Of a stretch of 64,000 bases of DNA, positions 44,456 through 63,786 are shown piece after piece. The position numbers and the translations under genes were made by a program. The DNA is taken from contig NZ_SZQJ01000009.1 of the NCBI RefSeq assembly GCF_013369335.1, forward strand, positions 1 through 64,000, written 5' to 3'. Origin of the DNA: Vibrio sp. JPW-9-11-11 (lineage in GTDB: Bacteria; Pseudomonadota; Gammaproteobacteria; Enterobacterales; Vibrionaceae). Every line of letters begins with the position of its first letter. Position 1 is the stretch's first letter. Below the pieces are notes generated by a model. The model ran no database searches, was not told where the DNA came from, and saw only the letters and a list, made by a program, of their open reading frames with translations.

Positions 44456-45391
44456 GTGCGAGTGAAGCGAATATTACTCTGGTTGACGGTTTTTACACCG
44501 ACACTGTTGTGGATCAGTTTGACCTTCTATGAGGCTACGTGGTGGATTGAGAATCTGGTCGCTTTTCCGGCGCTGTTTCTAATCGTCAACCTGTGCCTGT
44601 TTTTGGCTATGACACTATTACGAGCGTGGGCGCCAGCAGCTTTATGTGTGATTTTTGCTTTGACTTTCTTTTTGTTGAGTCCAAAAAACAACCATGATTT
44701 CGTCGTCAACTGTGTGAATCCAATCACTGTTGCGCAATACAACCTCTACTACGAAAATCCAGACATCAACGCGTTTATCAATGACCTACTTTCTTCTTCT
44801 TATGATCTGGTGGTATTGCAAGAAGTCGCGCCGGAAGTGGGAGAAAAATTGCATTCTTTGGACGACCACTATCCTTACTATTTTGGCGGTCAAGAAGGGG
44901 TGGGCTACCCTGCGAGTCAGATGATTTTAAGCCGTTACCCTCTCAAGGCAATATCGGTTTATATGACACCGGATCAGCAGGCGATCATTCGTGGTGTCTG
45001 GTACCCCAATACGCAAAAAGCGATCGATTTTATCGCCGCTCATCCTCCATCACCAAGGACAAAAGCTTTGTGGTATCGGCGCAACGCGCTAATCCGTACA
45101 ATAGAGTCACTCATCGAGATTTATCCGAGCAAAGAGTTGTTGGTTGTTGGAGACTTCAATCTGTCATCGGTTAGTTTGCGTTTTGGTAAAATCTTGCCCA
45201 GTTTCCAGACTGCGCCTGTTGCAAGTTGGCCCAACGTTGTGCCGTTTGAGACACCGAGCTTTTTGAAAATTGCGATTGACCACTTGTGGTTAAAAGCGAC
45301 TGAAACGGGTAGAAGGATTTGTCAGCGAACCAGTTTCACTGAGCCGAAAGGCTCGGATCACAACCTTGTTGTTACCACCATAGGGTACTGA
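44456..45391 (+). CDS. Membrane-anchored endonuclease/exonuclease/phosphatase family protein
   Basis: A 311-residue protein starting at GTG with GGGAGAG upstream. Three hydrophobic helices lie in residues 5-80, followed by an EEP domain: VAQYNLYYEN, VVLQEVAPEVG (metal-binding Glu), VVGDFNLSS and the terminal GSDHNLVVT (catalytic Asp-His). The enzyme fold cuts phosphodiester or phosphoester bonds; in membrane-anchored members the substrate is usually unknown. The domain is on the outer face by the likely topology, which is inference. Confidence 0.88.
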   Translation: MRVKRILLWLTVFTPTLLWISLTFYEATWWIENLVAFPALFLIVNLCLFLAMTLLRAWAPAALCVIFALTFFLLSPKNNHDFVVNCVNPITVAQYNLYYENPDINAFINDLLSSSYDLVVLQEVAPEVGEKLHSLDDHYPYYFGGQEGVGYPASQMILSRYPLKAISVYMTPDQQAIIRGVWYPNTQKAIDFIAAHPPSPRTKALWYRRNALIRTIESLIEIYPSKELLVVGDFNLSSVSLRFGKILPSFQTAPVASWPNVVPFETPSFLKIAIDHLWLKATETGRRICQRTSFTEPKGSDHNLVVTTIGY

Positions 45392-61395: not shown

Positions 61396-62442
61396 ATGCG
61401 TATCGAACAAGAACTTAAGTTAGGTTTTAAAGACGTGCTATTTCGCCCTAAGCGATCAACGTTAAAAAGCCGCTCTCAAGTTGAATTAACCCGCGAGTTT
61501 ACCTTCAAGCATAGTGGTCGTCAATGGTCGGGGACCCCCGTCATCGCTGCCAATATGGATTCAGTCGGAAGCTTTGAAATGGCGCAAGCGCTTGCAGAGC
61601 ATGATGTAATGACCGCGGTACACAAGCACTACACGGTTGAAGAGTGGGCTGAGTTTGTTAAAGGCGCAAACAGCGCGACGCTAAAGCATGTGATGGTATC
61701 TACTGGGACGTCAGACGCTGATTTCCAGAAAACCCAAGATATTCTGGCGCTTAGCGACGATTTAATCTTTATCTGCATCGATATTGCCAACGGTTACTCG
61801 GAGCACTTAGTCGAGTATGTTGAAAAAGTACGTGCGGCTTTCCCAGACAAGGTGATTACCGCGGGTAATGTTGTCACTGGGGATATGTGTGAAGAGCTTA
61901 TTCTCGCGGGCGCAGACATCGTAAAAGTCGGCATCGGCCCAGGCTCTGTATGTACTACACGCGTGAAAACAGGCGTGGGTTACCCTCAGCTTTCAGCAAT
62001 TATCGAATGTGGTGATGCCGCGCATGGCCTTGGCGGTATGATCATCGGTGACGGCGGCTGCTCTTGTGCCGGTGACGTAGCGAAAGCCTTTGGCGGCGGC
62101 GCAGACTTTGTTATGCTCGGTGGTATGTTAGCGGGCCATGAAGAAGCTGGTGGTGAACTCGTGGTCAAAGATGGTGAGACCTTCATGAAGTTCTACGGCA
62201 TGTCTTCTCAGTCGGCTATGGACAAGCACTCAGGTGGTGTAGCTAAGTACCGCGCCGCTGAAGGTAAAACCGTACTTCTTCCATTCCGTGGCAGCGTTCA
62301 CGGCACTATCTCAGACATCCTGGGTGGTGTACGCTCAACCTGCACATACGTAGGCGCAGCAAAGCTTAAAGAGCTAACTAAGCGTACGACTTTCATCCGT
62401 GTACAAGAGCAAGAGAACAACGTATTCGGTAAAGAGAAGTAA
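61396..62442 (+). CDS. guaC: GMP reductase
   Basis: A 348-residue enzyme converting GMP to IMP with NADPH. The first residues [31 protein letters not shown] and [11 protein letters not shown] are the GuaC signature. The catalytic Cys186 is in [18 protein letters not shown], and the flap [18 protein letters not shown] matches GuaC rather than IMP dehydrogenase; no CBS domains are present. AAAGGAACTGTAATC precedes the ATG. Its 3' end is the attachment site of the Tn7-like relic that begins 18 bases after the stop. Confidence 0.97.
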
Positions 62443-62459
62443 TCCAATACTTCGGAAAA

Positions 62460-62543
62460 TGTTGAAACAACCATAAATTGATATTGCCTCTTCATAGTCT
62501 AGACTTACGTAAGTTTACGTCAAAATCGTGATGAGGCAATATT
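62460..62543 (+). mobile_element. Tn7-like transposon end next to guaC
   Basis: The end starts TGTTGAAACAACCATAAATT and continues GATATTGCC. Repeated ACAACCATAAATTGATATT-like words are the TnsB sites seen in Tn7-like CRISPR-associated (I-F3) elements, as I recall them. It lies 18 bases past the guaC stop, the attachment position known for such elements. The tnsA start codon follows at 62544. A 12-base palindrome ACTTACGTAAGT (62503-62514) and inverted ATATTGCCTC / GAGGCAATAT lie between. Confidence 0.75.
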
Positions 62544-62840
62544 ATGTCTGATCTACCTTCTCCTTCTACTGCCACCCTGCTTGAACTTGAAAGTGCGTTT
62601 GACACCCCTGCTCGGAACTTAACTAAGTCACGCGGAAAAAACATACACCGTTACGTCAGTGCTAAGACGGGAAAAAAGAATCACGGTAGAATCTTTTTTA
62701 GAATGTGCCGCTTGTTATCATTTTGATTCGAACCTAGTATCGTTCGCTTTTGTTCTCAACCCATAAGATTTTCATGCAGCCTAAATGGTAAGACTCATAC
62801 TTATGTTCCAGACTTTCTAGTTCAATTTGATACCGGTGAA
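62544..62840 (+). pseudogene. tnsA: tnsA remnant, frameshifted and truncated
   Basis: Three reading-frame pieces make up one TnsA N-terminus: about 44 residues from the ATG (SRGKNIHRYVSAKTGKK), then ITVESFLECAACYHFD after a shift near the A-run at 62672-62678, then SQPIRF and NGKTHTYVPDFLVQFDTGE (62754-62840) after a second shift. The VESFLE glutamate and PDF aspartate match TnsA catalytic positions. TnsA cuts the 5' ends of Tn7-like donors. GAGG lies 8-11 bases before the ATG. It stops where an IS5-family end begins. Confidence 0.82.
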
Positions 62841-63206
62841 GGCTTTGTTGCTTAAATCGATGGAACTAAATCAAGAAGCTGCGATCTGATCGGCTACACC
62901 CATCAATCGTTGTAACCTCATGCCTAAACCTCGTTACAAAACAACTAACTGGAAGCAGTACAGAAGCAGTACAATAAAGCCTTAATCAACCGTGGTTCTT
63001 TGAACTTTTGGATTGATGAGGAAGCGATAGCCGAGTGGAAACAAACAAGACAAGCGTGGTAGACCTCGCCGATTCAGCGACCTAGCCATTACTACTGCAC
63101 TGATGGTGAAGAACGTTTTCTCTATTCCATTGAGAGTGTTGCAAGGTTTTCTAGACTCCGTATTTAAGCTTGCTAACGTCCCACTAGTTTGTCTGCACTA
63201 GATCTG
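62841..63206 (+). pseudogene. IS5-family (IS903-like) remnant
   Basis: GGCTTTGTTGCTTAAATCGA at 62841 is the IS903-type end. From an ATG at 62920 the transposase N-terminus reads MPKPRYKTTNWKQY, then after shifts NKALINRGSLNFWIDEEAIAEWKQ and RPRRFSDLAITTALMVKNVFSIPLRVLQGFLDSVFKLANVP. A local duplication (AGCAGTAC twice) and another shift break it, and the C-terminal two thirds are gone. It interrupts the tnsA remnant. Confidence 0.82.
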
Positions 63207-63717
63207 TATACCCGTGATCATTGAAGATACTTGCTTTTCAATAGAATCAGAATCATGCTGCGCACCATGAAAATTACGCTGACTCCTCAACAGAAAATAC
63301 AACTCGAACATATGCACGACATTGAACGTGATAGTCGAGTCTGCGACCGTATTAAGGCTGTTTTGCTTGCTTCCGAAGGTTGGAGTCAGACCATGAACGC
63401 GCAAGCTCTTCGCATTCATGAATCGACCGTTGCACGTCACCGCAGTGACTTAGTCAGAGATGCGGCGTTTGTCCTTAATATTGAACTGCATTATCTTCCA
63501 CCTTAATAGCCCAAACCTCAACCCAATATAGCGGTTATGGAAAGTAATGAATGGGAAGTCGAGGAACAACGTGTACTTCAAAAGAAAACGGGACTTCAAG
63601 GCGGCAATAGACCAATTTTTTGCAGTGACTCTTCCAGAGATCTCAGGCTCTTTGACATCTCGAATTAATGATAATTTTCAAGCTCTCAAACCTGCATCTT
63701 CAAGTTGATTCGGTATA
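63207..63717 (+). pseudogene. IS630-family element with internal deletion
   Basis: The N-terminus (MKITLTPQQKIQLEHMHDIERDSRVCDRIKAVLLASEGWSQT) is fused after about 65 residues to a C-terminal part (FVLNIELHYLPP, then frames for PNLNPI and FKRKRDFKAAIDQFFAVTLPEI). The central DDE core is lost and the tail has stop codons. TATACC ends with shared TTGAAGAT words are seen at 63207 and, inverted, at 63717. Confidence 0.8.
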
Positions 63718-63786
63718 CATAAGAAAGCAACGTTAAGATAGAGTTTCACATCTACTTAACATTGCCCGTTTTAGCTAATACTTACT

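Follow-up and report, generated by a model that had tools for sequence, protein, structure and literature searches.

A 381-base stump behind guaC in Vibrio sp. JPW-9-11-11: very probable relic of a type I-F3 CRISPR-associated transposon

CRISPR-associated transposons (CASTs) of type I-F3 are known from guaC, which is counted among four main attachment genes and placed with type I-F3a (guaC/yciA; PMC11406308), is named as an attachment gene in a further source (PMC12774636), and is occupied, as guaC/IMPDH, by the mini type I-F element of V. cholerae HE-45 (PMC6360697). Excerpts of two other sources describe Tn6677 (VchCAST) as having a TG terminus and TnsB sites of approximately 20 bp, three at each end (PMC10201428, PMC13370975). 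This element inserts 46–52 bp from its target, and a palindrome lying approximately 100 bp inward in its right end is discussed as a possible promoter element of tnsABC (PMC10201428). By the Tn7 convention, the end on the side of tnsA is the right end (PMC6360697).

The window analysed here, a stretch of 64,000 nucleotides, contains at 62460–62840 what is very probably the guaC-proximal, tnsA-side end of a relic of a type I-F3 CAST, together with the first 43% of its tnsA. This grade covers the identification of a relic of a CAST of type I-F3 at guaC; the step-by-step history proposed below is less sure. The features are as follows (G numbers denote congeners):

61396–62442, + strand: intact guaC (GMP reductase), an ORF of 348 aa, whose 3′ end is the attachment site
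62380–62411, + strand: putative protospacer of the relatives' guide within guaC, with edges placed from the repeat edges
62455–62459, no strand assigned: GAAAA, candidate copy of a 5-bp target duplication, the partner lost with the distal end
62460–62485, + strand: transposon right end, terminal TGTTGAA and one TnsB-type site (offset 7), those at offsets 27 and 50 of three-site relatives being absent
62486–62543, + strand: tnsA leader with inverted repeat (TTGCCTC ... GAGGCAA), from sequence and reverse-strand self-match
62544–62840, + strand: tnsA pseudogene that retains codons 1–99 of 229, carries two single-base frameshifts and breaks off at 62840
62841–63210, + strand: truncated IS ending the relic (called IS5-like in an earlier reading), 87% to phage-record features annotated as transposase
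63207–63722, + strand: degraded second IS-like stretch (called IS630-like in the same reading), with repeated copies in G006, G014, G015 and others

The stump and its insertion point

As in the type I-F3 CASTs at guaC (PMC11406308; PMC6360697), tnsA adjoins guaC at this same site, and the right end of HE-45 (tgttgatacaaccataaaatgataattaca; PMC6360697) resembles the ends found here by eye; the likeness to Tn6677 is one of description. Unlike the CASTs at guaC, the stump measures 381 bp, has one TnsB-type site instead of three and a broken tnsA, and tnsB, tnsC, tniQ, cas genes and a left end were not found with it. Tn6677 is active, whereas the element in the window is a relic, which has left guaC intact.

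The terminus TGTTGAAACAACCATAAATTGATA begins at 62460, with 17 bases between it and the guaC stop codon (ending at 62442), and occurs once in the genome of 4.14 Mb when up to 3 mismatches are allowed; the reversed pattern, used as a control, gave 0 matches in the same 4.14 Mb. The inverted repeat of the leader extends into the final bases of the TnsB-type site (62480–62543), is also present in relatives, and may correspond to the right-end palindrome of Tn6677; a tnsA leader was listed for 22 elements. An ATG at 62544 then opens three frame pieces of TnsA. This arrangement, an end directly after guaC followed by a start codon and a broken tnsA, had been read from the letters of the window in an earlier note, which also proposed a comparison with TnsA profiles. 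The comparison bore the reading out: Pfam PF08722 (TnsA-like N-terminal) matches at 62733–62843 with 28.3 bits, above the cut-off of 26.5, against 0 of 14 control genomes, and the tnsA stretch with X in place of its stop scores 27.7 bits. The first gene, of the TnsA endonuclease family, is present as a pseudogene, which covers 43% of the tnsA of G005 at 78% amino acid identity. Chance likeness was rejected on account of an exact 24-mer, a profile score above the cut-off and 93% identity over 375 bp. Rfam yielded nothing at the gathering threshold between 61,000 and 64,000.

The guaC junction of the window represents an insertion, because element-free congeners (e.g. G132 and G134) show the empty site that the earlier note had suggested seeking, with guaC, CTTCGGAAAATACGAA and the terminator following one another directly. 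A possible guide for this insertion is found in related elements, whose neighbouring guaC ORFs share 87–92% amino acid identity with that of the window. In 10 of 12 such elements, a 32-nt spacer-like stretch near cas6, lying between divergent repeat-like flanks, matches the 3′ end of the host guaC. The place of the match is the same across the ten, and it comprises 22–27 of 32 bases, each exceeding the top score among 10 shuffled versions of the respective region by margins that are as small as 1 base in G047 and G017 and 2 in G174; G047 also has an equally good match elsewhere. The remaining two elements, G217 and G177, gave matches at background only within the 1.2 kb searched, and the G177 stretch contains no guaC. 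The guaC of the window agrees with the ten spacers at 22–26 of 32 bases, a count made with no separate shuffles, and the best ungapped alignments start at 62380–62383. The end of the putative target lies 48 nt from the insertion point by the repeat edges, or 45–48 nt by the differing best alignments. RNA-guided homing would be the best account of the insertion, since the spacers of relatives match guaC, the distance fits and guaC is a published attachment gene.

Homology to the elements of relatives ends at 62840, and the IS-like stretch begins at 62841. Its 370 bases match "transposase" features in 12 of the 18 phage records among the matches listed, and repeated copies occur in G006, G008, G011 and others. 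Beyond the second IS-like stretch lies an opposite-strand gene with a metallo-beta-lactamase superfamily fold (C9:63787–65016), and approximately 8.5 kb downstream of the relic an inverted 130-bp piece (C9:71418–71547) shares 86% identity with the beginning of the IS bordering the relic.

The earlier note had also placed a right end, tnsB and tnsC, and any TniQ-Cascade possibly past 64,000. The end it called right is, by the convention cited above, the one that is present, so that the missing end is the left (distal) one, and none of these parts was recovered in searches of C9 to 100,000 (core genes) or 120,000 (ends), or in genome-wide searches for cas7, the terminus and tnsB. Beyond the stump, none of the seven core genes (tnsA, tnsB, tnsC, cas6, cas7, cas8-5 and tniQ) was found in C9:60,001–100,000, cas7 has no match anywhere in the genome, and tnsB has no close match, the single tnsB-like match being 26% identical. 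Substitution-tolerant patterns for a distal end and a displaced guaC terminator recovered the known end in C9:60,001–120,000 and, besides it, no more than a weak match to a single site at 66,689. The repeat of the relatives has one match in the genome, on another contig and at 3 of 3 allowed mismatches, and no guide belonging to the stump was found. Because tnsA is frameshifted and cut by an IS, and cas7, a close tnsB and a distal end are missing, the copy in the window is dead.

The DNA behind the stump appears to be variable ground. When window-side proteins 100 aa or longer from C9:60,001–100,000 were compared with 11–17 kb around guaC in 9 element-free congeners (E of 1e-20 or better, identity above 45%), only guaC and the preceding gene were matched. 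DNA behind guaC in G132 matches C9:105,125–108,013 (77%), and within the intervening 42.7 kb no transposon boundary could be placed. Elsewhere in the same genome (C36:92201–99122), a distant second Tn7-like operon encodes TnsA, a transposase with a Mu C-terminal domain, a TniB-type ATPase, a TniQ protein and a TnsD protein, and adjoins a Gabija pair (GajA and GajB). The ORFs upstream of it resemble what we take to be gcvT/H/P.

Complete and decayed relatives in the genus

A DNA search with the stump covered 196 genomes of the genus, from which stretches of 2 to 60 kb were then fetched. Some match was present in 61 of them, in many of them confined to the guaC 3′ terminus or a transposon end; hosts named below include V. 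atypicus (G029), V. hangzhouensis (G219), V. diabolicus (G085), V. methylphosphonaticus (G148) and Vibrio sp. ES.051 (G126). Identity to the stump is highest behind guaC in G005, G029, G165, G174 and G115 (92–93% in the first four and 90% in G115 in this search; 91–93% over 375–391 bp in all five when the stretches were aligned) and is lower elsewhere. All of these closest relatives except G115 carry tnsABC, tniQ and cas6/7/8-5; in those four and in G047 the seven core genes are covered at 96–100%, the cas8-5 of G165 matching in two pieces, and all seven are also present in G217 and G219. In G005, the Pfam families TnsA-like N-terminal, Mu-type transposase C-terminal, TniB, AAA, Cas_Csy4, Cas_Csy3, Cas_Csy2 and TniQ score above their cut-offs, while rve falls below; NCBIfam supports Csy4 and Csy3, places Csy2 below its cut-off (48 vs 154.1 bits) and has no match for TniQ. 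The earlier reading of a Tn7-like and possibly CRISPR-associated relic is thus supported by TnsA homology, by the position at guaC and by type I-F3 relatives, with the link to cas genes running through those relatives. The contrary case that it had raised, the same sequence in many vibrios with no Tn7-like context, is absent for the best matches, although decayed copies with an end and a tnsA piece alone do exist (e.g. G095, G119, G126, G010 and G006).

Other relatives are intermediate or rearranged. G215 has tnsB and tnsC, an interrupted tnsA, a partial cas8-5 and, over 20 kb, nothing matching tniQ, and tnsB and tnsC of G085 each match in two pieces (probable frameshifts). In G017 and G215, approximately 1.5–1.6 kb interrupts tnsA, with full-length tnsB and tnsC following; the tnsA parts of G017 overlap. 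An even shorter stump occurs in G001 (C3:89812–89877), where guaC is followed by the terminus and a TnsB-type site and then by unrelated sequence. The guaC element of G031 (C2:1235001–1295000) combines a distant tnsABC (35–43% to G005) with close cas and tniQ genes (66–84%), which suggests a possible swap of the transposase and CRISPR modules; end-like stretches stand back to back near C2:1267633–1267811. In G047 (C2:222001–282000), the distal end is present twice (positions 44972 and 57456 of the joined stretch), with a guaC-type terminator copy behind each, a pattern that points to tandem or nested insertion. An exact 5-bp target duplication flanks the element in four of six relatives with the distal end in view (ATAGT in G005, GTTTA in G174, AAAAT in G047 and AAATT in G148); that of G115 is one base off and G029 has none.

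Proposed history of the stump

In the best-fitting model, the guide RNA of an incoming type I-F3 CAST would have base-paired with the guaC 3′ end, and the element would have inserted approximately 48 bp beyond, with its tnsA end towards guaC. Its three right-end TnsB sites would have been reduced to one through slippage or recombination involving the first and third of them, tnsA would have gained frameshifts and received an IS, and everything from tnsB onward, including cas genes, cargo and the left end, would have been lost, leaving an immobile stump beside an intact guaC. The order of these events, the former presence of cas genes in this copy, the mechanism of the 43-bp loss and the failure to transpose from one site are points that we infer.

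The CRISPR association of the stump rests on its relatives, because neither a cas gene nor an array nor a distal end was recovered here. Its ancestor may have been CRISPR-free: in G077, tnsABC stands at guaC and the 20 kb fetched contain nothing that matches a cas gene; the genome of the window likewise has no cas7 match, and modules can separate, as the divergent tnsABC and cas/tniQ identities of G031 illustrate. That the stump derives from a Tn7-like element of the same end and tnsA type without CRISPR genes is nevertheless very unlikely in our estimation, since its nearest complete relatives in a tree of leader and tnsA starts (G005, G029, G165, G174 and G217) have cas genes and the spacing between the guaC target and the insertion is approximately that set by a guide. 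An import of the fragment with a guaC allele by homologous recombination, which overlaps the preferred model in the identity of the DNA, would be in keeping with the occurrence of closely related elements in different species and with guaC as a shared homologous tract; we regard it as unlikely, given that the guaC flank in the window (CTTCGGAAAA) is like that of the element-free G132 and G134 and unlike that of G005 or G115. The well-preserved terminus and TnsB-type site might instead suggest a small non-autonomous element still mobilised in trans by other CASTs, and the decayed G115 and G148 do retain a three-site left end, G148 with its exact target duplication. However, the genome of the window yielded no distal end, its right end has one TnsB-type site only, and its sole tnsB-like match is the 26% identical one, so that this reading appears extremely improbable.

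Loss of TnsB-type sites from the right end

In 14 three-site relatives (G005, G029, G165, G174, G047, G017, G010, G085, G217, G219, G215, G006, G030 and G077), TnsB-type sites lie at offsets 7, 27 and 50. In the window, the site at offset 7 is joined directly to the sequence past offset 50, and the 43 bp lost correspond to the distance from site 1 to site 3. This one-site form of the right end is shared by the decayed guaC elements of G115, G148, G095, G119 and G180 and, in degraded form, by that of G126, none of which has a full tnsB or tnsC in the sequence examined. G115 and G148 differ from the stump in keeping approximately 45 and 24 kb of cargo, respectively, and a three-site left end.

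A pattern census of 227 genomes of the genus gave 6 matches for the one-site pattern and 13 for the junction of sites 1 and 2; G126 (one site) and G077 (three sites, with tnsABC) lie outside it and come from the DNA search. Both tnsB and tnsC at 90% coverage or more stand behind 10 of the 13 three-site ends vs none of the 6 one-site ends (Fisher, 0.0031; 0.0065 without G119; 0.036 with G085 and G215 additionally scored as broken), values that overstate independence, as the elements are related and G005, G165, G174 and G217 are near-identical sisters, and that serve as a guide only. With G126 included, full tnsB and tnsC are found in 0 of 7 one-site ends within the sequence examined, in which the contigs of G119 and G095 end approximately 0.3 and 5 kb past the tnsA match, so that the absence of tnsB there is partly unseen. 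Decay is also possible without collapse of the end, because the three-site G006, G010 and G030 (3 of 13) have neither tnsB nor tnsC within the fetched 20 kb. Two sites are present in G167 and a damaged first site in G091, G092 being similar by eye; none of the three has a tnsB or tnsC match in the sequence examined. Across the family, a 37-base one-site pattern (up to 3 mismatches) occurred in 4 of 329 genomes, all four within the genus.

In the tree of leader and tnsA starts from 22 elements (22 of 24 sequences; the start motif was not matched in G219 and G177), the one-site G126 groups with the three-site G085 (support 0.99), and the window and G115 are placed together with the three-site clade of G005 (0.979), the other placements being weak. 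Since one-site ends group with separate three-site relatives, the collapse would by parsimony have occurred at least twice. For Tn6677, a two-site minimum is reported at the right end (PMC10201428) and, in a passage of a preprint, all TnsB sites except RE3 are required (PMC13370975); by analogy, a right end with one site would be expected not to move. It is conceivable, though we put it forward tentatively and rate it as somewhat doubtful, that collapse from three sites to one by recombination between sites 1 and 3 is a recurrent, one-step locking of guaC CASTs. On the same speculative footing, cargo could stay in place, as in G115 and G148, while the machinery rots, and the closely packed right-end sites would be the weak point.

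The kind of element is already known, and what is new here is the pattern of TnsB-site loss at the right end. No account of decayed CASTs or lost end sites was found in the titles and abstract starts of the literature searched, whose limited coverage of I-F3 makes this weak evidence of novelty, and a word search of PMC8649781 and PMC12452197 for terms of decay and inactivation gave no relevant match. If collapse immobilises, the count of sites on the tnsA side would help to tell live from dead CASTs in genomes, and engineered CAST donors would face a stability limit, given that recombination between their tandem sites could occur in the same manner. One-step collapse of an end may fix the cargo of a CAST in its host, and the stump behind guaC would illustrate how CRISPR-guided transposons die in nature.
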